Shown here piece after piece: positions 46,723-64,000 of a stretch of DNA of 64,000 nucleotides. Numbering within the stretch: the stretch's first letter is position 1; each line of letters begins with the position of its first letter. A program made the position numbers and the translations under genes. Below the pieces are notes generated by a model. The model ran no database searches, was not told the DNA's origin, and saw only the letters and a program-made list of their open reading frames with translations. Source of the DNA: Oceaniglobus ichthyenteri (GTDB lineage Bacteria > Pseudomonadota > Alphaproteobacteria > Rhodobacterales > Rhodobacteraceae); assembly GCF_003057885.1 (NCBI RefSeq), contig NZ_QAGK01000003.1:62001-126000 (forward strand), in the 5' to 3' direction.

Positions 46723-47541
46723 ATGAGGCAGAGATTTATAGCGTCGATCACAATCGCGGCCATTTTGGCGGCCGCGCCGGTTATGGCCGAAGGGCCACCG
46801 CCGTTTCCCGAATTTACATTCAAGCGGATGAAGCCGCCAAAGCCGGGGGCCGTCAAAAGAATAACGGTTCAGGTGCAACCACAAACCGCGCGAATTACCG
46901 CACGCCCCGCGATCAAGGAAGATCTGCCCGGTATTGGCGAGGATTCATCGGCCCATGCGTGGTTCTGGACCAAGGTGAAGGGTGGATCACCCGCAATAAG
47001 GGTATCCAGCGCATTGTTGGCGTTGCAACACGCCCCCGGCGGCGGCGTGGCCAGCCCGCGTTTGCAGGCCCTGCGCGAAATTGCCGACCGGCACGGCACC
47101 GAAATTCTGACGGCCACGGTCGGCACGCGGATTTCACCGGCCTTTGCTCTGGCGGTGATTGCCGTTGAATCGGGGGGCCGAAGCGATGCATTGTCCCGCG
47201 CCGGGGCGCAAGGGTTGATGCAGCTGATGCCAGCCACCGCCGAACGGTTCGGTGTAAAGGACCGCACAATCGCGGCGGAAAACATCCGTGCCGGCGTGAC
47301 CTATCTGAACTGGCTGATGGGCCGGTTCGATGGTGATCCCATCCTGGCCCTTGCGGGGTATAATGCGGGCGAGGGGGCGGTTGATAAACACGGCGGCGTG
47401 CCGCCCTTTGCCGAAACTCGGGGCTATGTGCCAAAGGTTCTGGCCGCCTGGGCCGTCGCCAAAGGCCTGTGCCTGACGCCACCCCAATTGATCACGGATG
47501 GCTGTGTGTTTGTCGGCAACCGGTCTTCGACGAATGGCTGA
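46723..47541 (+). CDS. Lytic transglycosylase (SLT domain)
   Basis: The 272-residue periplasmic protein has a signal peptide (about residues 1-22, ending PVMA). A basic Pro-rich stretch is followed by an SLT domain from about 140 to 250. The catalytic Glu is in ALAVIAVESGGRSDALSRAG near residues 143-162, and the fold signature GLMQLMPATAERFGV is near 164-178, with LALAGYNAGEGAV near 208. It cleaves peptidoglycan glycan strands. Its end overlaps the next gene by 8 bp. It lies beside the pilus locus, where such enzymes often open the wall, but it is on the other strand. Confidence 0.88.
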   Translation: MRQRFIASITIAAILAAAPVMAEGPPPFPEFTFKRMKPPKPGAVKRITVQVQPQTARITARPAIKEDLPGIGEDSSAHAWFWTKVKGGSPAIRVSSALLALQHAPGGGVASPRLQALREIADRHGTEILTATVGTRISPAFALAVIAVESGGRSDALSRAGAQGLMQLMPATAERFGVKDRTIAAENIRAGVTYLNWLMGRFDGDPILALAGYNAGEGAVDKHGGVPPFAETRGYVPKVLAAWAVAKGLCLTPPQLITDGCVFVGNRSSTNG

Positions 47542-48967
47542 GCCAAAGCCGTTGATCCTGGATGTGGATGGCACATTCCTGCGCACCGATATGTTGTTTG
47601 AATCGTTTTGGGCCTGTCTGGGGCATGATCCAATCGCAACGTTGCGTGTGACCGTTGGTAATTTTCGCCATCCGGCCCTGTTAAAGGAACGTCTGGCGGA
47701 AATTGCACCGTTGCGTGTTGATTTGTTGCCGGTTCACCCCGAAATGGCCGAAATCGCCAAGGCCGCCAGCGATACCGGAGCCGAGGTGATTCTGGCCTCG
47801 GCCTCGCACCGGACGCTTGTTCAAGATCTTGCACGCGAACACGATCTGTCGCCACGGGTTTTCGCCTCGCATGCCGGTCACAACCTGAAAGGCGCGCACA
47901 AGGCCGATGCCTTGATCGAGGCATTCGGCGCAGGCGGATACCATTATGCCGGCAATGAACCGGCCGATATCCCGGTGTGGGAAACCGCCGAAACTGCCAT
48001 CCTTGTCGGACAGCACGACAAGATTGCAAAGGATTTGCAATCCAAAGGCCACCCAACCCATCAGGTCAGGGGCGGCTGGGCGTGGCGCGATCTCAAACGC
48101 GCGGTGCGACCCCATCAATGGGTCAAAAACTCGCTTTTGATCCTGCCGATGATTGCCGCCCATGATTTCAGCCTTGACACACTGTTGCTTGTGCTGACCG
48201 GCATTATCGCATTTTCGGCTGCGGCGTCGTCGATTTATATCATCAATGATCTGCTGGATCTTGAAGCAGACCGCCTACACCCGACCAAACGCAACCGCCC
48301 CTTTGCCACCGGCAAGGTTCCGATCCGGATCGGAATGATCGCCAGCACGCTTCTGGCGGTGCTTGCCTTGGGTATCGGGGTCGCGCTGGGCGGGGCATTT
48401 TTGGCGGTGATCGTTGTTTATATGGTGCTGTCGCTGGCTTATTCTTTGAAACTGAAACGGATGCGTTGGGTCGATGTGTTCACCCTTGCCGCGCTATATA
48501 CCCTGCGTGTTGTGGCGGGGGCGGCGGCCAGCGCTGTGGATGTGTCGATCTATATGCTCATTTTCATTTTCCCGGTTTTCCTTACTCTTGGCTGTGTAAA
48601 ACGCATGACCGAACTTGCCCTGGCCACGGGGGATGAACCGCTTCCGGGCCGTGGGTATGGGCGCAAGGATCGCAGTGATTTGTTGAACATGTCGGGTCTG
48701 GGTATCGCCGGTGCCCTGGCGATTTTCACCCTGTATTCGATCAGCGATCAGGGCAGGTCACTGTACCCGACCACGTGGATTTTATGGCTTACGCTTATCC
48801 CGATCACCGCGTGGCTGATCCGGATGGTCGCGTTGGGATATTACGGCAAACAGGATTATGATCCGATCGTTTTTGCCCTGCGTGACCGGATCGGTATCGG
48901 GCTTCTCCTGATCATCCTGTCGCTGATGTTCTGGGCTGCGGGATTATGGGCGCAATGGTTTGGCTAA
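47534..48967 (+). CDS. HAD phosphatase-UbiA prenyltransferase fusion
   Basis: The 477-residue protein has an N-terminal HAD-like hydrolase (about residues 1-185) starting LILDVDGTFLRTDM, with the second motif ASASHRTLVQDLA. A UbiA-type membrane prenyltransferase follows (about 190-477) with the Asp-rich motif YIINDLLDLEADRLHPTKRN and RPFATGKVPIRIG. This resembles decaprenyl-phosphate phosphoribosyltransferases, which start arabinan-type glycan precursors; the substrate is inferred. ATG at 47534 overlaps the transglycosylase end. Confidence 0.82.
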   Translation: MAEPKPLILDVDGTFLRTDMLFESFWACLGHDPIATLRVTVGNFRHPALLKERLAEIAPLRVDLLPVHPEMAEIAKAASDTGAEVILASASHRTLVQDLAREHDLSPRVFASHAGHNLKGAHKADALIEAFGAGGYHYAGNEPADIPVWETAETAILVGQHDKIAKDLQSKGHPTHQVRGGWAWRDLKRAVRPHQWVKNSLLILPMIAAHDFSLDTLLLVLTGIIAFSAAASSIYIINDLLDLEADRLHPTKRNRPFATGKVPIRIGMIASTLLAVLALGIGVALGGAFLAVIVVYMVLSLAYSLKLKRMRWVDVFTLAALYTLRVVAGAAASAVDVSIYMLIFIFPVFLTLGCVKRMTELALATGDEPLPGRGYGRKDRSDLLNMSGLGIAGALAIFTLYSISDQGRSLYPTTWILWLTLIPITAWLIRMVALGYYGKQDYDPIVFALRDRIGIGLLLIILSLMFWAAGLWAQWFG

Positions 48968-51756: not shown

Positions 51757-53229
51757 GTGCTTGTTTTTGCCCATATCGCGTATCTTTCGGTGGTCATGAT
51801 CCTTGGATCGGTCATGTCGAAAGATCTGTTGGGCGCGGCTCCGGCGGCGATAATCGGTATCGGGTTGTTGGGCACGTGGCGCTATACTTGGGGCGCAATC
51901 AACTTTAGCCGCGCCTTCTGGTTTCGCACCGTGGCCCACCCCCGGCGCAAGGCGGCGGCGCGGGCGCGGTTTGAACGCTCGGGGCATTTGTCCCATGCTT
52001 ATATGTTGATGACATCCTACATGATTGCGCCGGAAACCACGATTGTGGTGTATCGCGCCCTGTTTCAGGCCGCCGCACAGGCCCGCGATGGCGCAACGGT
52101 TGTGGCGTCGGTTGTCGATGGCGCGGACGAGCGGTTGATCCGACAGCTTTTCGAGGCATCACCAGCGGCGCGGGCGCCAGTCAAACTGATCATTGACCGG
52201 ATACCGGCCACCGGCAAGCGTGACGCGCTGGCGCGGTCCTTGCGGATTATCGCGCGGCATTATCCGACACAGCACGATGTGCTGTTGATTGCCGATGGCG
52301 ACACCACTGTGCCCCACGACATCATCGAAGAAATCGTCCCGGTTTTCAGCGACCCGAAAATCGGCGCGCTGACCACGGACGAGGCGGTGGCAATTCCCGA
52401 TCAAGGGCTGTTTCGCGATTGGTTCGAACTGCGTTTTGATCAGCGCCAGATCATGATGTGTTCGATGGGCCTGTCAAAACGTGTTCTGACCCTGACGGGC
52501 CGGATGTCGGCATTTCGCGCCAGTCTGGCCACGAACCCCGATTTCATCGAACAGGTGCAATCGGATTACATTGATCATTTGCGCCTTGGGCGGGTGAACT
52601 TTTTGACCGGGGATGATAAATCAACCTGGTTCTGGCTGTTGAAAAACGGCTATCAAATGGCCTATCTGCCCGATGTCCGGTCACAATCGGCCGAAACCCA
52701 ACCCTTGCCCACATTCTATGCCTCGGCGCGGGTGCTGACCGTGCGGTGGTTTGGCAACATGCTGCGCACCAACGGGCGGGCATTGAAACTGTCACCGCTC
52801 AGGATCGGATTTTTCACCTGGTGGTCGATTCTGGATCAGCGGGTCTCGATCTGGACCACGATTGCGGGGCCGGCCTTGGCGCTGATGGCGGCGCTGTTTT
52901 ATGATGTTGCCCTGATTGCGGCCTATGTCGCCTGGATCATGCTGACACGATATATATACGTCACGCTGATTACCGCCTTTCGCGGTCGGCTTGGCTTTCC
53001 CATTACCTTTCCGTTCCTTTTGTATTTCAGTCAGCTTTATGGCGCACTGATCAAGAGTTTTGTTCTGTTCCGTCTTGATCGGCAAAAATGGACGCGCCAA
53101 TCGACCAATGCCGTGGCCGCGCGCCAGACCACCGGCCAGCGGGTGATCGCGGCCAGTTCCATTTACATGACATGTCTTACCTTTGGCTGGCTTTTGGTCG
53201 GCCTTCTTTATCTTGCGGGCGGCCTTTGA
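51757..53229 (+). CDS. alg8: Alg8-like mannuronan synthase (GT2 family)
   Basis: The 490-residue inner-membrane glycosyltransferase closely follows Alg8, which polymerises GDP-mannuronate. It has an N-terminal membrane part, then a GT2 core. Residues seen are DGADER (121-126), ADGDTT (179-184) and the catalytic TGDDKST block (285-291). VRWFGNMLRTNGRALKL (329-345) replaces the usual QxxRW. C-terminal membrane helices follow. The start GTG at 51757 follows an in-frame stop at 51748. No GDP-mannose dehydrogenase gene is in view, so the sugar could differ. It heads the operon. Confidence 0.85.
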   Translation: MLVFAHIAYLSVVMILGSVMSKDLLGAAPAAIIGIGLLGTWRYTWGAINFSRAFWFRTVAHPRRKAAARARFERSGHLSHAYMLMTSYMIAPETTIVVYRALFQAAAQARDGATVVASVVDGADERLIRQLFEASPAARAPVKLIIDRIPATGKRDALARSLRIIARHYPTQHDVLLIADGDTTVPHDIIEEIVPVFSDPKIGALTTDEAVAIPDQGLFRDWFELRFDQRQIMMCSMGLSKRVLTLTGRMSAFRASLATNPDFIEQVQSDYIDHLRLGRVNFLTGDDKSTWFWLLKNGYQMAYLPDVRSQSAETQPLPTFYASARVLTVRWFGNMLRTNGRALKLSPLRIGFFTWWSILDQRVSIWTTIAGPALALMAALFYDVALIAAYVAWIMLTRYIYVTLITAFRGRLGFPITFPFLLYFSQLYGALIKSFVLFRLDRQKWTRQSTNAVAARQTTGQRVIAASSIYMTCLTFGWLLVGLLYLAGGL

Positions 53230-53279
53230 TTTTGGATGAGCCGACGAAAACACCATTACCACGCGAAAGCCTGAATTTT

Positions 53280-54326
53280 ATGAAACATGCCGATTTGCAG
53301 CCGCCCGACAGCGCCGTTGCCCTGCCTGCGGGGTTCGCCCACAAGGGCGAGCATCCGCAACTTGAGGTGCCGTTCACGGCATTGATCGGCACGCAAATGC
53401 TGACCGGGCGCAGCCTGTCGTTGACCAGTGCGGTCGTTTCCGGCGCAATGCCGACAGGGGTGGACGGCACCGTTGTTGCCATGGCGCTGCGGCTGAATTT
53501 TTCGGGGTTTGCGGTACTGTTGTATGTCGATGCCTGGGTCGAAAACGGCAACGAGGATGACACCTATACCCTGCATTTCACCGAACCCACGGGCGAACAT
53601 CTGGCACCGCTGCGCTATGTTCTCAACAGTTATATCGCGGGTGATATCGTGTCTTTGGGCGGCTTCATGGGCTATACCGGCCCACTGAGTGTCAAGGAAA
53701 AGGCAGCCGCCCAAACGCCCGGTTTGTCGCATAAGATCCAGAACGTGGTGCGGCGTGGCATCGTGATTGCCCTGACCGCCGGTCTGGCGCTGATTGCGCT
53801 GAACCTTGCGCATGAACGGGTGGTATTTTCCTATGAGGCGCGGCCCGTGACCGTGACCGCGCCGGGCCAGACCCTGATGGCGACGGCGGCCGGGCAATTG
53901 ACCTATGCCGATCCGAACGCCGCCAAGGGCGAGGTGGTGTATTCCATCCTGGCCAATTCGGGCGATTACCTGAGCGTTAAAATGCCCTGTGATTGCACCA
54001 TCCTGCCGATGCGCAATTTCGTTGAAGGGGCCACAATCATGACCGGCACGCCGATTGTGCGGCTGGCATCGGGTGATGCGGGGCTGGTGGCCAACACGGA
54101 AATCAGTGCCGAAGGCGCTGTGAAACTGGTGTCGGGGCAGCAGGCCGAATTGGTGTTGGCGAATGGCACCGTTGTGCCGGTCACCCCCGAAATCCTGCCA
54201 TCGCCCGATGATGGTGATCGCACGGTACGGGTGGAAATGACGTTGGATGACACAACGAACGTGGCACCGGGTCAGGTGGCGCGCCTGCGATTCCGGCGCA
54301 ATTTGTTGCCATCGTTTCTGCATTAA
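53280..54326 (+). CDS. alg44: Alg44-like co-polymerase with degenerate PilZ region
   Basis: The 348-residue protein has an N-terminal beta-rich domain (about residues 30-140) in the place of the Alg44 PilZ domain. One membrane helix lies near 160-178, followed by a periplasmic HlyD-like barrel-sandwich region (about 185-348, with GDYLSVKMPCDCTILPMR). The position, length and topology match Alg44. The c-di-GMP motifs RxxxR and (D/N)xSxxG are not visible, so control may differ. A TTG at 53232 could extend it by 16 residues. Confidence 0.75.
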   Translation: MKHADLQPPDSAVALPAGFAHKGEHPQLEVPFTALIGTQMLTGRSLSLTSAVVSGAMPTGVDGTVVAMALRLNFSGFAVLLYVDAWVENGNEDDTYTLHFTEPTGEHLAPLRYVLNSYIAGDIVSLGGFMGYTGPLSVKEKAAAQTPGLSHKIQNVVRRGIVIALTAGLALIALNLAHERVVFSYEARPVTVTAPGQTLMATAAGQLTYADPNAAKGEVVYSILANSGDYLSVKMPCDCTILPMRNFVEGATIMTGTPIVRLASGDAGLVANTEISAEGAVKLVSGQQAELVLANGTVVPVTPEILPSPDDGDRTVRVEMTLDDTTNVAPGQVARLRFRRNLLPSFLH

Positions 54327-54364
54327 ACCGAGACTTTGAAATTTCAACAGGACCGATAGAAAAA

Positions 54365-55849
54365 GTGTACAGCCCGCCAAACCTGCCAGAGATCATCGCG
54401 GTTGCGTTCCGGCGCCGGATGCGTGGCGTGCTGACGGCGCTGGCGATGCTGTTGATGATCGCCCAGACAGGGGCGGCCCAACCCATCGAACCAATCCTGG
54501 CCGAGATCGAGGCGCGCTATCACACCCTGATCAAACAGACCCGCGCGATCAAGGCACCAACTGGCAAGGCCGCGGGCGCGGTTTCTGCAAAAACCACGGC
54601 ACATCTGGTCACATCCGATTTGCGCGTTGCGCTGTTGAAACTGGCGCGCACAGATGAAACCGAAGGCCGCAAAATCATTCTGGCGGCGCAGGGCGGGCGT
54701 GATCCCGTGGCTTTGTCGCTGGCCGCAGGTCAGGCCACGTTGCCCGGTCTGTTGGCCAAGGCACAGCAGTTGTTCCCGGGTGCGGTGGGCGAACACGGCC
54801 TGGGCATACCGTTGATTATCGAGCAGGGCGCGGAGCTGTTGTTGGATCAGGGCGCAGTGCTGAGTCTGAACCGGGCAGCGGGTGCGTTTGTGGTTAATTT
54901 CGGCGCACTTACCATAAATGGCGGTGGAATCATTGCCGCAGGTCCGGGCAATGATGCGGCCTCTTTTGCTCCCTTTGTCGTTACGGCAGGGCAGGGGGTG
55001 ATGGCCGCCGATAATGGCTATTTTGCCGGCCTTGGTTTTGGCGCTGATCTGACATTTGCCGGACTTTCTGTTATGATCAGTGGGCTTTACCCCACTGACC
55101 GGCCTTCGGTTTTGACGGGGTCAATCCTGCGCGATGTCGGGTCAGCGGTGTTTGTCGGCGGGGCAGGGGTTTCTATCACAAACAACCGGTTTGTTGATCC
55201 GCGCCGCACCGCGTTGATCCTGCGCGCAACACATGGGGCACAGATCGCCGACAATATATTTACCGACGGGGCGTCGGGTGATGCGATCCGTCTGGCGGCG
55301 GGGGCAACGGGCACCGATATTCGGGACAGCGAAATCTTTCAGCCCCGCGAAAGCGGCATCGCGCTGTTGGCGGGCAGTGGCGACACGGTGCTGCGCAATG
55401 TGACAATCTGGCGGCCCCGTCACAACGGTGTGCGGGCCGAACACTCGGCCTGTCTGTCGATGCGCAACCTGCAAATTCTGGGGGCGCGGCAAGAGGGCGT
55501 GACCCTGCGCGGTGTGCAGGGCGCGAAACTGGCCGACAGCGTTCTGATTGCCTCTAAACGTGCCGGGCTGTTGGTGGCCGATCTGCCCGGTGAGGTGACG
55601 ACGCAAATCACCGGCAACCGGTTTGCGATGAACCGCACCGGAATCGAAACCGCAGCGGCCGGGCATCTGGCCCTGTCGGGCAATGATTTTCAGGATCAGT
55701 TCCCGCGCTTTCTGGCCGGGGATGTGCAATTCATGACCCCGGATCTGTTGCGCGATCTGACCGGCAAAGAGCAGATCATTCTGGCCGGTGGCAGCGCGCC
55801 CGGCACCCCGACCCCCGCCCCCGTTTGCGCCCCCGATACAAAGGATTAA
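54365..55849 (+). CDS. algG: AlgG-like parallel beta-helix protein without DPHD motif
   Basis: The 494-residue periplasmic protein has a basic N-terminus with a signal segment (MRGVLTALAMLLMIAQ, near residues 19-34). A helical part follows (40-130), then a right-handed parallel beta-helix of CASH/PbH1-type repeats from about 150 to 465 (for example ITNNRFVDPRRTALILRATH). It fits AlgG, a mannuronan C5-epimerase. The catalytic DPHD motif of Pseudomonas AlgG is absent; the nearest is D278-P-R-R281. So it may be an inactive scaffold or use other residues. Start GTG at 54365 or ATG at 54419. Confidence 0.75.
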   Translation: MYSPPNLPEIIAVAFRRRMRGVLTALAMLLMIAQTGAAQPIEPILAEIEARYHTLIKQTRAIKAPTGKAAGAVSAKTTAHLVTSDLRVALLKLARTDETEGRKIILAAQGGRDPVALSLAAGQATLPGLLAKAQQLFPGAVGEHGLGIPLIIEQGAELLLDQGAVLSLNRAAGAFVVNFGALTINGGGIIAAGPGNDAASFAPFVVTAGQGVMAADNGYFAGLGFGADLTFAGLSVMISGLYPTDRPSVLTGSILRDVGSAVFVGGAGVSITNNRFVDPRRTALILRATHGAQIADNIFTDGASGDAIRLAAGATGTDIRDSEIFQPRESGIALLAGSGDTVLRNVTIWRPRHNGVRAEHSACLSMRNLQILGARQEGVTLRGVQGAKLADSVLIASKRAGLLVADLPGEVTTQITGNRFAMNRTGIETAAAGHLALSGNDFQDQFPRFLAGDVQFMTPDLLRDLTGKEQIILAGGSAPGTPTPAPVCAPDTKD

Positions 55850-55852
55850 GCC

Positions 55853-57292
55853 ATGGTGTTTTCGTCTGAATCCTTTCTGTTCCTGTTTCTGCCGCTGTTT
55901 CTGGCGCTGTATTACCTCACCCCGACGCGGACGAAATCCTATACCATTCTGGCGGGCTCATACCTGTTTTATGCCTGGTGGCGGGTTGATTTTCTGGGGC
56001 TTTTGTTCCTGACCACGGTATTTGCCTATGTGGTGGGGCAAAAGGTTTCGCGCCACCGTGGCACGGCGCGGGGCAAGGCGTGGTTGGGCATTGGCGTGGC
56101 GGGATGTCTGGGCGTTTTGGGCGTGTTCAAATACCTGAACTTTTTCTTGGATAGCTTTGCCGCGCTGGTTGGCACCGATACGGCGGGCCTTGGCATTCAT
56201 TGGCGGTTGATCCTGCCGATTGGCATTTCGTTTTATATCTTTCAGGCGCTCAGCTATCTGATTGACGTGCATCGCGGCGATGCCAAGGCCGACGCCCGGT
56301 TCATTGATTTCGCCGCCTTTATCGCACTTTTCCCACAACTGATTGCAGGGCCGATCCTGCGCTATAAGGATTTGGAGGATCAATTCAAAAGCCGCACCCA
56401 CAGCGCCGAAATGTTTGCCGATGGCATGGCGCGGTTTCTGATCGGGCTGGCCAAAAAGGTACTGTTGGCCGATGCCATCGCGCCCCTTGCCAATCTGGCC
56501 TTTGCCAATTCCGGCGATGTCGGCATGGGGTTGGTCTGGGTTGGGGTCATTGCCTATATGCTTCAGCTTTATTTCGATTTTTCGGGGTATTCCGATATGG
56601 CAATCGGGCTGGGCAAGATGATGGGGTTCAATTTCCTTGAAAACTTCCGCTTTCCCTATATCAGCCGCTCAATCACCGAATTCTGGCGGCGCTGGCATAT
56701 TTCGCTTTCAAACTGGCTGCGCGATTATCTCTATATCTCGCTTGGCGGCAACCGGCGTGGCAAACTCTGGACCTATGCCAACCTGATGACAGTGATGGTT
56801 TTGGGCGGGCTGTGGCATGGCGCGAACTGGACATTCGTTTTGTGGGGCCTGTGGCATGGCGGCATTTTGGCGGTTGAGCGGGCCACCGGCCATGATCGCC
56901 GCGCCGCCCGCCTGCCTTGGGCATTGCCGCTGACATTGCTGTGCGTGCTGATTGGTTGGGTGATGTTTCGCGCTGAAAACGTGGGCCAAGGGTTTGAGGT
57001 TTACGCCGCCATGCTGGGGGCCAACGGTTGGGTCGGCAACCCCGCCCTGTGGCTTGAGGTGACGCGCGAAAGTCTGGCGTTTACCTGTCTGGCGGTGGTG
57101 ATTTGCATTGTCGAACCCCGCGCCTGGACGCTGTTTGAGGCGCGACGCGATTTCGCCATTCGCCCCGATGGCACCGTCGCAATCCCGATGGTGCAGGGCG
57201 CGGTATCTTTGGGCCTGATCGCTTTGGGCGTGTTCACGGTGATGAAACTGGCCGAGCAAAGCTATTCCCCGTTCCTTTATTTCCACTTCTAA
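55853..57292 (+). CDS. algI: Alginate O-acetyltransferase AlgI (MBOAT)
   Basis: The 479-residue polytopic membrane protein passes acetyl groups from the cytoplasm to the periplasm. It begins MVFSSESFLFLFLPLFLALY, as AlgI does. The conserved FSGYSDMAIGLGKMMG is near residues 242-257. The catalytic His falls at residue 322 in GGLWHGANWTFVLWG, the same number as in P. aeruginosa AlgI. It starts 3 bp after algG and is followed by algJ at 11 bp. Confidence 0.93.
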   Translation: MVFSSESFLFLFLPLFLALYYLTPTRTKSYTILAGSYLFYAWWRVDFLGLLFLTTVFAYVVGQKVSRHRGTARGKAWLGIGVAGCLGVLGVFKYLNFFLDSFAALVGTDTAGLGIHWRLILPIGISFYIFQALSYLIDVHRGDAKADARFIDFAAFIALFPQLIAGPILRYKDLEDQFKSRTHSAEMFADGMARFLIGLAKKVLLADAIAPLANLAFANSGDVGMGLVWVGVIAYMLQLYFDFSGYSDMAIGLGKMMGFNFLENFRFPYISRSITEFWRRWHISLSNWLRDYLYISLGGNRRGKLWTYANLMTVMVLGGLWHGANWTFVLWGLWHGGILAVERATGHDRRAARLPWALPLTLLCVLIGWVMFRAENVGQGFEVYAAMLGANGWVGNPALWLEVTRESLAFTCLAVVICIVEPRAWTLFEARRDFAIRPDGTVAIPMVQGAVSLGLIALGVFTVMKLAEQSYSPFLYFHF

Positions 57293-57303
57293 GGGTTAAT
57301 GCG

Positions 57304-58359
57304 ATGATGTTTCCCACTCCAAATCTGGCCCTGAAACTGACCGTACCGGTGGCGTTTTTCGGATATGCCCTGTTGGCCAATCTGTCGTTGTTCACGGCCC
57401 CGAATGCCATGCTGCCCACTGCCCAAGGGCTGTTGAACGGTCAAATAACAGCCGCCATTGATGGGCTGTATCGTGAGAACCTGCCCCACAAGGCCCCCTC
57501 AATCGGCGTGATCGGCGCGGCGCGGTATCTGCTTTTGAGCGAAGGGCGGCCCGGCGTTGTGGTGGGCCAGGCGGGGCATTTGTTTACCTCGGAAGAATAC
57601 CGCGCGGTTGATGGCGCGGTATATGGCGCAGCTTTGGCACAGGTGGCGCGGGCGGCGGCGCAATTGGACGGGTTGGGCGTGCAATTGATCGTCGCGCCGC
57701 TTCCGGCAAAGCTGGATCTGATGCGCGATTGGGCCAATGATGGCGCGGCGGCAAATGCGCTTGCGCAGCTCTATCAAACATTTCAAACCGATCTGCGCGC
57801 CAAAGGCATCAGCGTGGTTGATAGCCGCCCCGCCCTGGCCGCCAGCCCCGCGCCGTTTTTAACAACCGATACCCATTGGACACCGCAAGGCGCGCGCACC
57901 GTTGCCACCAGTATCGCCGCCAGCGGGACAGTTGCGCCGGGGTCCGATGGTTTTACCATCGAAACCGGCCGCGAAATCATCTTTGCCGGTGATTTGGTCA
58001 GCTATATCACATCCGACGCACTTGCGCCCTTTGTCGGCCTGTCGCGTGAAACCGTCACGCCCTATACCGCCGTGGCGCAGAGTGTTGAAACCGGTGTGCT
58101 TGACCTGTTTGGCGGGGATGGCGGCGGCATTGATCTGGTTGGCACATCCTATTCCGCCAACCCGAATTGGAGCTTTGCCGAGGCGCTGAAGCTGGAGCTG
58201 AGCCGCGATGTGGTGAACCATGCCGAACAGGGGCAGGGGCCATTTGCCCCCATGGCGGCATATCTTGCCACGCTTGATCCGCTGGCCCTGCCCGAGGTGG
58301 TGATTTGGGAAATTCCGGTGCGCTATCTGACCGATCCGGCGATGAAGGGGGCGGAATGA
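57304..58359 (+). CDS. algJ: AlgJ-like acetyltransferase (SGNH fold)
   Basis: The 351-residue protein has a membrane signal-anchor near residues 10-30. An SGNH-like domain follows with the acid/His pair in TTDTHWTPQGA (Asp189, His191) and a nucleophile Ser in LVGTSYSANPNW (Ser282). This is the AlgJ/AlgX catalytic set. It relays acetyl from AlgI. An ATGA overlap links it to the next gene. Confidence 0.85.
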   Translation: MMFPTPNLALKLTVPVAFFGYALLANLSLFTAPNAMLPTAQGLLNGQITAAIDGLYRENLPHKAPSIGVIGAARYLLLSEGRPGVVVGQAGHLFTSEEYRAVDGAVYGAALAQVARAAAQLDGLGVQLIVAPLPAKLDLMRDWANDGAAANALAQLYQTFQTDLRAKGISVVDSRPALAASPAPFLTTDTHWTPQGARTVATSIAASGTVAPGSDGFTIETGREIIFAGDLVSYITSDALAPFVGLSRETVTPYTAVAQSVETGVLDLFGGDGGGIDLVGTSYSANPNWSFAEALKLELSRDVVNHAEQGQGPFAPMAAYLATLDPLALPEVVIWEIPVRYLTDPAMKGAE

Positions 58360-59162
58360 AACGGCACTCTGTATACAAGCGCCTGCTGGCGGGGATGATT
58401 GCCGCAACCTTGGCCCTGCCTGTATTGGCCGATCCTGCGCCACCACTTCTTGATCTGACGCGGCTGGGCGGTTATGACGCCGAGGCGCGCAAGATTTCCG
58501 TGACCCTGACACGCGGCGTGCGCAGCGGGCGCGATTTACCCACTCAATCTCTCAGAACCACGCGCGAACGGATGGTTGACGATTTGCCCGTAACCATCGA
58601 CGCCTTGCGCGCCTTGGCCGATGCCGGCGATGGCATCGCCGCCCTGCGTTTGATTGCCCAGCTTGAGGAGGAGGGGCACAGTGCCGCACCCGAAAATCTG
58701 GCGCATTATTACGGGCTGGCCGCGTCAACCGGGCGGGTTGTCGGGCTGTTCGGGCTGGTACGCACCCTGAAACAGGTTGATCCGGCCAAGGCCGGGCCTG
58801 CGCGGTTGCGGATGCTGCAAGATATCGTGATGGCCTATGCCAAAGCAGGCAATCCGGTGGCCTCGGCGGCAATGATGGAGTTTCACCGCACCGGACACCC
58901 GTTTGGCCCGATGCCGGGCGCGATTGCAGAATTGGCCACGGCGGGGCAGGGCAAAAGCAATGCGGTGATCGCGCTGCAACTGGCGGGGGATCTGATTCAG
59001 ACTGGATGGGATGATCCGGCCGCATTGGCCCGTGCGCAAACCCATCTGCGCGCCGCCGAGACAGCGGATTCGGTGCGCATAAAGTTGATCGCGGGCAATC
59101 TTTTGCCGGTGCTTGCGGCGCGCATTCAGACCCTTTCACCGGTTGAGGAGCCAAACGGATGA
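58356..59162 (+). CDS. Small secreted helical-repeat protein in the alginate-type operon
   Basis: The 268-residue protein has a signal peptide (about residues 1-26, ending PVLA) and otherwise consists of alpha-helices with Sel1/TPR-like periodicity (ALADAGDGIAALRLIAQLEE, YYGLAASTGRVVGLFGLV). It has no exact counterpart in the Pseudomonas cluster, although it may share AlgK's scaffold role with the much larger gene at 61262. It overlaps algJ at its start and algX at its end, both by 4 bp. Confidence 0.7.
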   Translation: MKRHSVYKRLLAGMIAATLALPVLADPAPPLLDLTRLGGYDAEARKISVTLTRGVRSGRDLPTQSLRTTRERMVDDLPVTIDALRALADAGDGIAALRLIAQLEEEGHSAAPENLAHYYGLAASTGRVVGLFGLVRTLKQVDPAKAGPARLRMLQDIVMAYAKAGNPVASAAMMEFHRTGHPFGPMPGAIAELATAGQGKSNAVIALQLAGDLIQTGWDDPAALARAQTHLRAAETADSVRIKLIAGNLLPVLAARIQTLSPVEEPNG

Positions 59163-60625
59163 TTGGACGATTGCGCATTCTGGCGCTCACCGCTCTTGTG
59201 GGTCTGTCAACCACATCTGCCATGGCCGACAGCGCCTTTGGCTGTTCGGGGTTGGAAACCGATGCCGATCTGGCCACGCTTGAGGGGCACGACGGTGTGT
59301 TTTTCCGCATGGTTTCAGACCTGCGGATGGATCGCCCGTTTTCTCAGGCGACCGTTGCCAATCTGGCCGAACTGTCGCGCGCTTTGGCCGAACGGGGCAC
59401 CACATTGGTGTTCGCGCCGGTCCCGACCAAAGCGGTGACCATGCCCGATTGGCTGCCTGAACGCGCCCGCCTGATGGGGTTTGACCTGACCGTGGCAACG
59501 GAGGTGCAGCGCGATATCTTACGCCAACTTGACGCTGCCGGTGTCATCACCGTGGATCTGCGCGCCGCCATGGTTCAGGGTGGCGCGGGCCGTCACACAT
59601 TTTTCGGCACCGATACACATTGGAATGCGTTTGGTGCCGAATTGGGCGCGATGGCCGTGGCCGAGGTGCTGAAGGCACAACCGATCTATGACAGCCTGAC
59701 CAAAACCACCCATGAAACCGTTGAGATGGGTGAGAAAACGGCGTTTTCGGGTATGCGCCGGATTTTGCAACGTCGCTGTATCGAAACCCTGCCCGAACCG
59801 GTGACCATGACCTATGAAACCCGCGTCGCCAGCACCGGCGCGGCCATGGCGGGCGGCACCCTTGATATCGGGCTGAACGACGAGACATTGCTGGATATCG
59901 GGCTGGAAGACGAACCGCTGGATATCGGGCTGGACGATACGCTGCTTGATATCGGATTGGACGACACCGCGCTTGATATCGGGCTGGGCGCGGATGCGGG
60001 CGTGGCCCGCGACCCGGCCAGCCAATTGCCTGTTGCCTTGGTCGGTACGTCGTTTACCGATCTCGCGGTCAGCAATTTTCCGGGCTTTGTGGCACAACAT
60101 GCCGGGGTTGAGGTGGTGAATTACGCGATCACCGGCGGTGGTCAGTATGGCGCAATCACATCCTATCTGACGTCCGACGATTTTCAGACCGCGCCGCCCG
60201 CGTTTCTGGTGTGGGAAAACCCGATCTATGCGAATCTGGCGCAAAATGGCAGCGGCCCGATGCGCGAACTGATCGCCGCCGTGCGCGGCTGCGCACAGCC
60301 GGTGGATATCACCATCGGCGATGATCGTGCGCGCCTGACTGCCACGTTGCCACCGGATTTGGGCCCCGATCACACCCTGTTTCTGGACACCGGCACCGGG
60401 GCCATGGCCAAGGCGACGTTCCGGTTTGCCAACGCCGCCGGGCGCAACCGCACCAAAACCATTGAACGGGGCGAACGCCTGCGCCTGAACGGGCGGTTTT
60501 ACATGCCGTTGACCGGTCTGTGGCCCGGTGGCGCGCAGAGCGTTGAAATTGATTTACCTCTTCCCTTGGGTCAGGCCGCCACATTGTCTGTCTGCGCCCC
60601 CGAACCATCATTACAAAAGGATTGA
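59159..60625 (+). CDS. algX: AlgX-like acetyltransferase with LDIGL repeat insert
   Basis: The 488-residue periplasmic protein has a signal peptide (about residues 1-23). An SGNH domain carries TDTHWNAFGAE (Asp152, His154) and nucleophile Ser298 in LVGTSFTD. A beta-rich C-terminal module (about 380-480) resembles the AlgX carbohydrate-binding module. Between them, residues 235-276 hold five LDIGL words separated by acidic spacers, just before the catalytic Ser. This insert is not part of the AlgX family as I know it. It overlaps the previous gene by 4 bp. Confidence 0.82.
   Translation: MIGRLRILALTALVGLSTTSAMADSAFGCSGLETDADLATLEGHDGVFFRMVSDLRMDRPFSQATVANLAELSRALAERGTTLVFAPVPTKAVTMPDWLPERARLMGFDLTVATEVQRDILRQLDAAGVITVDLRAAMVQGGAGRHTFFGTDTHWNAFGAELGAMAVAEVLKAQPIYDSLTKTTHETVEMGEKTAFSGMRRILQRRCIETLPEPVTMTYETRVASTGAAMAGGTLDIGLNDETLLDIGLEDEPLDIGLDDTLLDIGLDDTALDIGLGADAGVARDPASQLPVALVGTSFTDLAVSNFPGFVAQHAGVEVVNYAITGGGQYGAITSYLTSDDFQTAPPAFLVWENPIYANLAQNGSGPMRELIAAVRGCAQPVDITIGDDRARLTATLPPDLGPDHTLFLDTGTGAMAKATFRFANAAGRNRTKTIERGERLRLNGRFYMPLTGLWPGGAQSVEIDLPLPLGQAATLSVCAPEPSLQKD
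59861..59986 (+). repeat. Five tandem LDIGL repeats in algX
   Basis: The 15-base words encoding LDIGL begin at 59861, 59891, 59918, 59945 and 59972, with periods of 30, 27, 27 and 27 bp. The spacers are acidic (NDET, EDEP, DDT). CTT/CTG and GGG/GGA variants show some drift, so the array is not brand new. The reading frame stays open. Confidence 0.9.
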
Positions 60626-60628
60626 ACC

Positions 60629-61258
60629 ATGTTCGACAGACGCCGTTTTCTGGCCCTCGGCCTTGCCACACTGATCCCGACCACAACGTCCGCCGCGGGC
60701 GATGCGGGCCTGTATCAGGATGTGTTTGATCCACAATCCAGCTTTATCCGCGTTCTTGCCCCCGGTCAGGGCTTTGCCACCGTGGCCGGCACCCGGCTGA
60801 GCGATTTTGAGGCCGGCCTGTCGCCCTATGTCAACGTGATGCCCGGCAGCGTGGCCATAACCCATGCGGGCGGCACCACCGACCTGACTGTGGCGCCCAG
60901 CAGCCATTACACCATCGTGTTGCAAACCGGTGCCGATCCGGTGGTGTTGGTCGATGATCTGGCGATGAACCCGGCCAAGGCGGATGTGTCGTTATATAAC
61001 CTCAGCATGCGCGACGGGGTTGATTTGTTCGTGCCCGCCGCGCGCGCTGTGGCGTTGCAGGGCGTGCCGCTGTCGGGGGCAAAATCGGTCGCGCTGAAGG
61101 CGCCTCTGACGCTTGATTTCGAACTGCGCGTCGGTGACGAAACCCTGGCCACCGTCGGCGCGGTGGCATTGCAGCGTCGCGCCGGCGTGTCGGTCGTATT
61201 GACCGGGGCCGACAGCCAATTCACCGCCGTCGCGGTGCCAAACACCTATCAAAGGTAA
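60629..61258 (+). CDS. algF: AlgF-like alginate O-acetylation adaptor
   Basis: The 209-residue protein has a signal peptide with a twin-arginine-like start (DRRRFLALGLA) ending near residue 22. It then has a two-part beta-sandwich. The N-terminal half (GLYQDVFDPQSSFIRVLAPG) resembles AlgF. AlgF has no enzymatic motif; in Pseudomonas it bridges AlgJ/AlgX during acetylation. It lies 3 bp after algX. Confidence 0.78.
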   Translation: MFDRRRFLALGLATLIPTTTSAAGDAGLYQDVFDPQSSFIRVLAPGQGFATVAGTRLSDFEAGLSPYVNVMPGSVAITHAGGTTDLTVAPSSHYTIVLQTGADPVVLVDDLAMNPAKADVSLYNLSMRDGVDLFVPAARAVALQGVPLSGAKSVALKAPLTLDFELRVGDETLATVGAVALQRRAGVSVVLTGADSQFTAVAVPNTYQR

Positions 61259-61261
61259 CCA

Positions 61262-64000
61262 ATGATGCCCGAAGGCCACATTCAATCGCCCCCAAACCGG
61301 CGGCTGTCGGGCCTTCGGTGTGTTCTGGTGGCATGTTTCGCGCTGGGCAGTCCGGTTCAGGCGCAAGACACGCTGGATCTGCAATTCCGCCCCCCCGCGA
61401 TCACGCCGGGGCCGATTTGCGAATCCCCCCCCACCGATGATGAAACCACCGATTTTTGGGGCGATTGGGATCAACGGGTTCTGCCCGACCGCCCGATGCG
61501 CAGCATTCGGCGTGATATGAACCGGCTGGTTCAGATCGACGGCGCGCGCTGGTTCGATACGGTGACGCGCGCAATGGATCTGTTGGAAAAATCCGATCCG
61601 GTGTTTGAGGGCGAAACCGCTTTGGTCATGCGCATTGCCGTGTTGGACGGTGCGGGCAAATTCGAAGACCTGACCACAAGCGGCCTTGTCGCACAGTTGG
61701 CCGCGCAGATCGATGACTTGAAACCGGCGTCAAAACTGGTGCTGTCGCGGTATCTGCGTAACGGGATCGGTATTGCCGCCGATTCCGCCATGGCCGACCG
61801 GTTGTTGGTTGATGCGGGTTATGCCGGCGATCCCAAGGCGCTGCTGGCGCTGGCCGCGCTGCAACTGGCCGGGAAGGCCCCTGCCGACTGGTCGGTTCCG
61901 GCAGAATTGGCCGTAGCCACCGCGTTCAGCACCATGGTGGGCGAGTTGGACCCACAGATTTGCGACCGCGCCACCCGGATCGCCACCCAATTTCGGTTGG
62001 GCGGCGTCGTCACGCCCGATCCGCAGCTGGCCCATGATTGGTATCGCTTTACCGCCGATCTGGGCAGTGGCCATGCGGCATGGAAGGTGGTCGAATACCA
62101 CATGCGTGCCGAACAGTTTGAAAAAACCAACGATCTGCTGCTGCGCTATCTCGAAATGGCTGCGTCGGCCGATCTGTCTTATGCACAGATCGAACTGGCC
62201 CGGGTGTTGGAACGCGGCGCCCTGGCCCCCCGAAACATCGACCGCGCCTATGCCCTGTACGAGGCGGCGTCGCGCTCGGGCGATCTGCGCGGTTTGTCGC
62301 AATTTGCCCTGTTTTTGCGCCGCCATGAACCTGCCGATCCGACAGTGCGCGCGCCACGCGTTACGGTGTTGCAAAAGCTTACCGCGCGCAACGACGCGCC
62401 GGGCTGGGCGTTTTCGCAACTGGCTGAAACAACGCTGGAAGATCGCGGCGTCTGGGCCGGTGCGGGCGATGCGCGCCCCCTGTTGGAACAGGCGGTCAAA
62501 CGCGGCAATCTTGATGGCCATGTGATGTTGGCGCAACTGATCCTGGCCAACAGCCCCAACGCGGCAAATATCGATCGGGCCGTTGATTTGTTGGCCCATG
62601 TGGTAAATGAACGGGGTGGATCACAGCCGATGAAGATGATCCGCGCCGCCCATGTGTGCCGTGCCAACGGCGCGCCAGATCGCGCCGCGGCCCAGTATTG
62701 GCTGGCTGAAGAGCAGGCCATCGGCGTATCGGATTCCGATGATCATTCCAGCCCTTTGTTAAGCCTGACCATCGCTGACAATGCCCCCCGGCTTGCCGAA
62801 ATACAGTCTTTCGCGCTCAGCGGATCACCGAACGGATTGGCAATGTGGCGCCGCGTGATCAAGGCCGCACCGTTCGCCGATGAGGCGATGCGCAATTTCT
62901 GGGCCAACTACTTTGACCAGACCGATGCGCGCCTGGTCGCCCAGGCCAAGCTGGACCTGACCCTGACCCGCGATCCGGGCGTTCACGCGGTGATCTTTGC
63001 CGCCTTGCGCGAACGGCACGCGACCTCGGGCCCCAATTTCGCCGGTTGGCTGAACGACACCTTGGTGAGCGGCATGTATGGCCCCGAAATACTGGCACAG
63101 CTCAGCACCGAGGCCCGCACCGCCGCCACGATTGAGCTGACCCGCTCGTCTGCGATGGGGTATGGGCGGGCGATGATCGGTCTGGCCGCTCTGGCCAACA
63201 CCCCCGCCGACCGGAGCGCGATATTTGATCGGTTTCGCGCCGTGATTGACGCCAATGGCGATTACGCCGCGCAACTGTTTGCCGCCCGCCATGGCGACCG
63301 GCCCGGGTATTACGCAGCCCGCGCCGCCGGGATCATGCCCTGTTCGTTTCGCAGTGCCATGGAAATGGCCGCGCTGGGCGGCGATTTGGGCAATACTGCG
63401 CAGGAAGACCACTGGCTTGCGGTGGCTGATGTTCTGGCGCCAGAGCGGACATCCTGGATGATCGCCTTGGCGCGCGCCTATTTGCGCGGTGGCAAGGCTG
63501 AAATGGGCCCCCGTGCAATGGATTTGCTGACCGAGGCCAGCGCACAGGGCGATATCAACGCCGATGTCGAGATCTTTCGCCTGATCGTGACACCCGGCGG
63601 GCCGTCTTACGATCCTGATCGCGCGGCGCGGATAATTGCATCGGCGCTGGAGGGTGGGCAAATGACGGTGCTGTCGCGCTATCTGTCGGCCCACCGCAAC
63701 GCGGATCAGGCCACGCGCACCCGGATCGAAGCGCTGTTGGACATGCCGATGATCTATCGCAGTGCCGCCGAGGCGGGCGATGCGGTGGCGATGCGCATAC
63801 ATGGTCTGGTCTTGCGCGAACAGGCGGCAGGTGCGGCAGATCTGACCGCCGCCATGGGCTGGCTGGCCCGCGCCGCCAAGGCGGGCGATACCACCGCCAT
63901 GACCGAACTGGGCGAGGCACTGGCCTTTGGCATCGGTTTGCCGGCGGATCGCGACCGCGCGTTGATCTGGCTGACCCGCGCCGCAGAACAGGGCAGCGAC
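61262..64000 (+). CDS. Very long Sel1-repeat protein, AlgK-like (cut by window end)
   Basis: The frame is open from the ATG at 61262 through the end of the window (913 codons, no stop), so the protein is larger. It has a signal peptide (about residues 15-36, ending PVQAQ), a short acidic start and then helical Sel1-like repeats throughout (for example AMGWLARAAKAGDTTAMTEL and RALIWLTRAAEQG near the end). AlgK, a Sel1 lipoprotein of about 475 residues, guides polymer to the AlgE pore; this protein is about twice as long and has no lipobox. It is the likely periplasmic scaffold. It starts 3 bp after algF. Confidence 0.78.
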   Translation, partial: MMPEGHIQSPPNRRLSGLRCVLVACFALGSPVQAQDTLDLQFRPPAITPGPICESPPTDDETTDFWGDWDQRVLPDRPMRSIRRDMNRLVQIDGARWFDTVTRAMDLLEKSDPVFEGETALVMRIAVLDGAGKFEDLTTSGLVAQLAAQIDDLKPASKLVLSRYLRNGIGIAADSAMADRLLVDAGYAGDPKALLALAALQLAGKAPADWSVPAELAVATAFSTMVGELDPQICDRATRIATQFRLGGVVTPDPQLAHDWYRFTADLGSGHAAWKVVEYHMRAEQFEKTNDLLLRYLEMAASADLSYAQIELARVLERGALAPRNIDRAYALYEAASRSGDLRGLSQFALFLRRHEPADPTVRAPRVTVLQKLTARNDAPGWAFSQLAETTLEDRGVWAGAGDARPLLEQAVKRGNLDGHVMLAQLILANSPNAANIDRAVDLLAHVVNERGGSQPMKMIRAAHVCRANGAPDRAAAQYWLAEEQAIGVSDSDDHSSPLLSLTIADNAPRLAEIQSFALSGSPNGLAMWRRVIKAAPFADEAMRNFWANYFDQTDARLVAQAKLDLTLTRDPGVHAVIFAALRERHATSGPNFAGWLNDTLVSGMYGPEILAQLSTEARTAATIELTRSSAMGYGRAMIGLAALANTPADRSAIFDRFRAVIDANGDYAAQLFAARHGDRPGYYAARAAGIMPCSFRSAMEMAALGGDLGNTAQEDHWLAVADVLAPERTSWMIALARAYLRGGKAEMGPRAMDLLTEASAQGDINADVEIFRLIVTPGGPSYDPDRAARIIASALEGGQMTVLSRYLSAHRNADQATRTRIEALLDMPMIYRSAAEAGDAVAMRIHGLVLREQAAGAADLTAAMGWLARAAKAGDTTAMTELGEALAFGIGLPADRDRALIWLTRAAEQGSD

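Follow-up and report, generated by a model that had tools for sequence, protein, structure and literature searches.

The 64,000-nucleotide window analysed here (C23:62001-126000 of the 3.9-Mb genome of Oceaniglobus ichthyenteri) carries an alginate-type exopolysaccharide operon, of which nine tightly packed open reading frames (ORFs) on the + strand lie at 51757-64000. Between several adjacent genes there is either a 4-base overlap or a gap of a few bases. Together with one gene past the window edge, the whole operon reads 8-44-G-I-J-s-X-F-S-L, in which numbers and capitals denote the alg genes and s and S the small and large Sel1 genes. It is bounded on either side by opposite-strand genes, one resembling monomeric isocitrate dehydrogenase on the 5' side (a label from sequence alone) and a trpS-like gene directly after the algL-type gene. 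The features are listed below; bit scores were obtained with profiles made from the relatives of the window genes and scored on a canonical Pseudomonas-type operon (L130).

51757-53229, + strand: alg8-type GT2 polymannuronate synthase (predicted), 490 amino acids; PF13641 9e-29; 505 bits against canonical Alg8
53232-54326, + strand: alg44-type copolymerase with a PilZ-like N-terminus lacking RxxxR and a HlyD-like periplasmic part; likely start at the ATG near 53277; 92 bits
54365-55849, + strand: algG-type periplasmic right-handed beta-helix protein without DPHD; 1.6e-39 for the profile against AlgG structures; 170 bits
55853-57292, + strand: algI-type MBOAT acetyl transporter/transferase; PF03062 1.5e-30; GGLWHG; 604 bits
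57304-58359, + strand: algJ-type SGNH acetyltransferase; PF16822 9e-54; DTHW and GTSY intact; 282 bits
58356-59162, + strand: small Sel1-like secreted protein, 268 amino acids; no Pfam match; conserved in the family
59159-60625, + strand: algX-type acetyltransferase; Asp-His-Ser triad intact; tandem-repeat insert (DIGL); AlgX structure 4knc 5e-23; 201 bits
59857-59987, + strand: tandem repeat within algX, 27-nt unit, about 5 copies, giving LDIGLxD repeats
60629-61258, + strand: algF-type acetylation adaptor; PF11182 5.5e-8, slightly below the curated cut-off; 64 bits against canonical AlgF
61262-64000, continuing to 64042, + strand: large Sel1/TPR periplasmic protein (Sel1b), 926 amino acids; PF08238 3e-18; candidate AlgK-like scaffold
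64039-65061 (C23:126039-127061; L002:13040-14062), + strand, wholly past the window: algL-type PL5 lyase; PF05426 9e-18; PDB PL5 lyases 2e-17; 146 bits

The original prediction had named nine tightly packed genes with matches to alg8, alg44, algG, algI, algJ, algX and algF, together with two Sel1-type proteins, and the ORFs, the Pfam scan and the profile matches to the L130 counterparts all agree with it. The Pfam scan of the operon also yielded a beta-helix/NosD match (8e-13) and two ALGX matches (9e-54 and 6e-46), and no match for Alg44 or the small Sel1-like protein. Single-sequence PDB searches with Alg8, Alg44 and AlgG gave zero matches, and profiles were needed for AlgG and Alg44. The apparent lack of algL was an effect of the window edge, since the large Sel1 gene runs to 64042 and the lyase gene starts at 64039.

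Homologues of Alg8, Alg44, AlgG, AlgX, AlgL, AlgI, AlgJ and AlgF are shared with the Pseudomonas/Azotobacter operon algD-8-44-K-E-G-X-L-I-J-F-A. As in Pseudomonas, the acetyltransferase triads of AlgJ and AlgX are intact, and the Alg8 clades are adjacent. However, the gene order is different, as had been predicted, algD and algA are located in a second operon, and AlgE was not found in the genome. Furthermore, two Sel1 proteins are present instead of one AlgK of ~465 amino acids, and the operon lacks the Alg44 RxxxR motif, the AlgG DPHD motif and AlgL His202, which is replaced by Leu.

The alginate assignment is supported by Alg8, in which the DGD, TGDDK and RWFGN motifs are all present. We built an Alg8 tree that included Escherichia coli BcsA and PgaC and left out hyaluronan synthases. 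The 83 alphaproteobacterial rows form a single clade, with 100% support in the Shimodaira-Hasegawa-like approximate likelihood ratio test (SH-aLRT), sister to the Pseudomonas-type Alg8; the latter clade comprises six canonical and two divergent gammaproteobacterial operons. BcsA and PgaC are placed far outside both clades, ruling out a cellulose- or poly-N-acetylglucosamine-type synthase; the grouping with cellulose-type synthases that would have refuted the original prediction was not seen. The acetylated cellulose (wss) operon of Pseudomonas fluorescens has AlgI/J/X-like acetylation proteins in common with the window operon (PMC7112194), but its synthase is of the cellulose type.

In the original prediction no algD or algA was visible; this operon has neither, and both genes are present in the genome on contig C33 in a second alginate-type operon, D-8-44-A-G-s-X-S-L (C33:259102-271888; L102:1103-13889). 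The Alg8 of this operon is 61% identical to that of the window. Over its full length, the C33 AlgD scores 424 bits against the Pseudomonas aeruginosa GDP-mannose 6-dehydrogenase, compared with 249 for the best UDP-glucose dehydrogenase. The C33 AlgA is of the GMP-PMI type, marginally under the cut-off (372.2 versus 372.95 bits), and a further, standard GMP-PMI is encoded on contig C35 (572 bits). Because of the types to which the C33 AlgD and AlgA belong, the sugar donor is most likely GDP-mannuronate.

A search of GTDB genomes with Alg8 returned at least 156 related stretches, and the 80 loci that were kept all come from Rhodobacterales and Rhizobiales. The family to which the window operon belongs is not rare: such an alg8 occurs in ~8% (31/395) of the sampled genomes of the host family. 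Two copies were found in two of those 31 genomes, namely that of O. ichthyenteri and that of Rhodobacteraceae bacterium CCMM004 (G748), a member of the same GTDB family, whose second alg8 (G748:C15:753441-754901) coincides in position with the alg8 of L036. In 78 of the 80 loci algD adjoins alg8, and only the window-type operons lack D and A.

Three architectures can be distinguished. Type 1, D-8-44-A-G-I-J-s-X-F-S-L, is the most frequent; its 20-kb loci mostly stop within S, and three extended operons finish with L. Type 2, D-8-44-A-G-s-X-S-L, is devoid of I, J and F, the genes for acetylation. D and A are missing from type 3, which comprises the window operon, L019 (CCMM004) and L020 (Jannaschia pagri), and all three genomes also hold a type 2 operon with D and A (the C33 operon, L036 and L049, respectively). 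The type 2 operons (C33, L032, L036, L052 and others) have the same core as the window operon and likewise lack RxxxR, DPHD and AlgL His202, but contain algD and algA, have no algI, algJ or algF, and carry a destroyed AlgX triad. In almost every related operon, the small Sel1-like gene separates X from J (or from G).

In the Alg8 tree, type 3 forms one clade (100%), and its sister group consists of the Loktanella and Alloyangia operons of type 1 (98%). The type 2 operons also form a single clade, with the exception of Martelella (L096) and two loci that are truncated. Since type 3 is monophyletic and sister to type 1, the simplest account of its origin is that a type 1 operon lost D and A once.

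The acetylation set of AlgI, AlgJ, AlgF and AlgX is present in the window operon with its catalytic residues intact (GGLWHG in AlgI, DTHW and GTSY in AlgJ, Asp-His-Ser in AlgX). In Pseudomonas, acetyl groups are relayed through AlgI, AlgJ and AlgX, with AlgF as a mediator (PMC10641220). Among the scored operons, the AlgX triad is intact in all 48 with I or J and lost in all 17 with neither; at the triad positions the C33 AlgX has Asp-Arg-Glu. L041 and L085 were left out of this test, because their contigs stop early, which also makes them appear I/J-less in the tree. The Fisher value of 5e-16 overstates independence, because most of the 17 triad-less operons share one ancestor. In Martelella (L096), however, I/J and the triad were both lost on a separate branch from the type 2 loss. 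Judging from these genes and residues, the window operon looks competent for acetylation and the C33 paralogue does not. The association, with Martelella as an independent case, provides comparative evidence that a structural role of AlgX outlives its acetyltransferase activity.

The LDIGLxD repeats of AlgX fall between its two catalytic motifs. L019, L020, L029 and L030 have three or four copies, and most relatives have no more than one. A similar DLFG motif is found in canonical AlgX at the corresponding region, and also in AlgJ.

RxxxR is the mark of c-di-GMP (cyclic di-GMP)-binding PilZ domains. The profile of the window Alg44 gives a weak PilZ match to the Alg44 structures 4xrn/4rt0. None of the 70 alphaproteobacterial relatives has RxxxR, compared with 9 of 9 comparison sequences; both Arg residues are replaced, and the position mostly reads [N/T/G]-[E/D]-H-P-x. 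Having lost the arginines that bind c-di-GMP, this Alg44 is probably not a point at which the nucleotide turns on synthesis.

AlgG is also altered. The AlphaFold model (predicted local distance difference test score, pLDDT, of 91) has the AlgG structure 4nk6 as its best PDB match, yet the DPHD motif is missing in all 73 alphaproteobacterial sequences, with no conserved replacement, nor is the Arg within the REVNDS segment conserved. The family alignment has a mean column identity of 32% and not a single invariant Asp, His, Arg or Lys. We suppose that AlgG is probably a guide for the polymer rather than an epimerase. DPHD is also missing from the AlgG of L132 and L137, two divergent gammaproteobacterial alginate-type operons in which AlgE is weakly recognisable; the L132 genome has a canonical operon (L131) as well. 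Fourteen related loci, L026, L029 and L045 among them, have a gene for a large beta-helix protein with RTX-like repeats on their upstream side; such proteins possibly act on the polymer. As a source of guluronate, neighbouring secreted DPHD epimerases can be rejected, as these proteins lack the motif too.

In AlgL, Arg249 and Tyr256 are kept, while His202 is Leu in 17 of 17 sequences. The position of Tyr259 is occupied by His in all 17, and this residue might be a relocated catalytic His. The H202A mutant of P. aeruginosa AlgL has undetectable activity in vitro and shows normal growth in vivo (PMC8829089).

As the original prediction remarked, no AlgE is visible in the operon, and as far as PF13372 can tell it is absent from the whole genome. 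It was not found in 24 alphaproteobacterial genomes either (22 from relatives, plus G321 and G107), whereas all five gammaproteobacterial genomes searched contain it, weakly in one (G186). A pore gene 3' of algL was considered for the type 1 operons, and none was recognised in Maritimibacter, Yoonia and Litoreibacter; a fourth stretch considered, L158, contains no alg gene. The position of AlgK is taken by the 926-residue helical Sel1 protein together with the small one. The Sel1b profile reaches AlgK (7ula) at 7e-7 via the Sel1 repeats, and Foldseek with the Sel1b model retrieved only generic helical-repeat proteins. The possibility that Sel1b conceals an outer-membrane barrel was ruled out, since the predicted model is all-helical without a beta-barrel.

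Gene content, homology, the position in the tree, the residue changes, the linked GDP-mannose dehydrogenase and the absence of AlgE are read directly from the sequence. Considering them together, we regard the operon as likely to encode an alginate-type machine of the synthase-dependent class, in which polymannuronate is both made and O-acetylated, with precursors from the second operon and export by a non-AlgE route. The product is probably O-acetylated and un-epimerised. Acetylated polymannuronate, already suggested in the original prediction, is the product best supported by the GDP-mannose 6-dehydrogenase type of algD, the catalytic residues of I, J, X and F and the loss of the epimerase motif from AlgG. 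The polymer itself is a proposal, and the lack of epimerisation, the lack of c-di-GMP control, the sharing of precursors and the division of labour between operons are each proposed with less confidence than the polymer class.

In the proposed mechanism, AlgA and AlgD of the C33 operon, together with a presumed general phosphomannomutase, would make GDP-mannuronate, the window operon having neither gene. Alg8 with Alg44 would polymerise it across the inner membrane, probably without a c-di-GMP switch at Alg44. The periplasmic chain may then run along AlgG as a guide, the two Sel1 proteins and AlgX, and would be acetylated by AlgI, AlgJ, AlgF and AlgX through a Pseudomonas-type relay, while AlgL with its changed active site might remove stray chains. 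The polymer would exit by an outer-membrane route other than AlgE, encoded outside the operon. Presumably, the C33 operon, with its dead AlgX and no I, J or F, would make a non-acetylated form.

Three alternatives need to be weighed against this mechanism. The same machine could retain an active mannuronan C5-epimerase with a rearranged site, so that its product would be a gelling alginate of mixed mannuronate and guluronate, like that of Azotobacter or of environmental Pseudomonas. AlgG is indeed a true homologue by profile and fold and is retained in nearly all complete operons, but the replacement of DPHD throughout the family without a conserved substitute, the unconserved REVNDS Arg and the low overall conservation make this unlikely; the RTX beta-helix neighbours of the relatives would not supply the motif. 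It is still less probable that the operon makes another uronan, e.g. acetylated polyglucuronate from UDP-glucuronate. The genome does contain a UDP-glucose-6-dehydrogenase-like gene (L004), and the PDB entry that AlgL matches best bears only the title "Polysaccharide lyase". Moreover, three gammaproteobacterial loci (L134, L135 and L136) have the arrangement D-8-44-x-L-Sel1b without G, X, I, J and F, possibly for a different uronan, and since their dehydrogenase is less AlgD-like (260-279 bits), the machinery may have switched sugars elsewhere. In nearly all relatives, however, alg8 lies beside a C33-AlgD-like dehydrogenase of the GDP-mannose type, plus a GMP-PMI-like gene where the contig allows, and the window Alg8 is located inside that clade and not near L134-L136.

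We consider it equally improbable that, after losing algD and algA, the window operon has become a silent or decaying copy and that only the C33 operon is functional. Consistent with decay, D and A are missing, and no counterpart of the conserved LuxR-type regulator whose gene precedes algD in 46 related loci was noticed in the ORF list for the region upstream of the window operon. In contrast, all ten ORFs are intact, the catalytic residues of Alg8, AlgI, AlgJ and AlgX are retained, and two further species, at 74-75% Alg8 identity and in the fully supported type 3 clade, have an operon lacking D and A in the same way.

Several points weigh against polymannuronate synthesis and export as proposed above. 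The absence of RxxxR and DPHD does not prove that the c-di-GMP response or the epimerase activity is lost. Neither AlgE nor any other outer-membrane pore could be recognised, either within the operon or 3' of its relatives, and the similarity of Sel1b to AlgK is confined to generic Sel1 repeats. The literature gave no sugar analysis for any organism shown to carry the operon. The exopolysaccharide of Yangia sp. ND199, which comes from a related group and may or may not have such an operon, consists mostly of glucose, fructose and galactose with a minor acidic sugar (PMC7892980). More tentatively, and with rather less than even confidence, we propose that the alphaproteobacterial alginate branch has dropped the AlgE pore, c-di-GMP gating at Alg44 and epimerisation by AlgG, and that some genomes use two paralogous operons to make acetylated and non-acetylated polymannuronates from one precursor supply, with non-AlgE export.

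Known mainly from Pseudomonas and Azotobacter, alginate is a textbook exopolysaccharide: c-di-GMP activates its synthesis post-translationally, AlgG and AlgL modify the chain, and AlgE exports it. In the widespread branch described here from Alphaproteobacteria, all of these features are changed but the synthase and the acetylation relay are retained, which makes it a natural experiment on the role of each part. Rhodobacterales and Rhizobiales may be alginate producers that have been overlooked, and the question arises of which outer-membrane protein exports the polymer without AlgE. Bundalovic-Torma et al. (2020) compiled 64 alginate operons, mostly from Pseudomonas, with atypical ones lacking algKE or modification loci (PMC7112194). 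Those atypical operons are described as coming from deep-sea dwelling bacteria, and the accessible part of that study does not describe the present alphaproteobacterial operons, their pairing or the motif losses. A kelp study reported five alginate genes including algE in a metagenome-assembled genome of a Micavibrionaceae member (PMC9238374). In the open-access literature, outside which most subscription journals fall, we found no description of the alphaproteobacterial family, the paired operons or the motif losses.

Other genes were noted beside the related operons. The LuxR-type/response-regulator protein mentioned above, of ~230 amino acids, is encoded immediately 5' of algD (e.g. in L023 and L025) and is a candidate regulator of type 1 operons. 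A divergently oriented gene for a polysaccharide lyase of PF14099 lies beside type 2 operons (L005:295-1230, minus strand; also 5' of algD in L032, L035, L039, L042, L043 and L047), and the product in L032 has a lipoprotein-like N-terminus. More distant alg8-like clusters with homologues of D, A, X, J and I occur in the host family (L143 and L144), their alg8 being ~31-33% identical to that of the window. Elsewhere in the window, a HAD-UbiA fusion protein (PF12710 and PF01040), unrelated to the operon, is encoded at 47498-48967.

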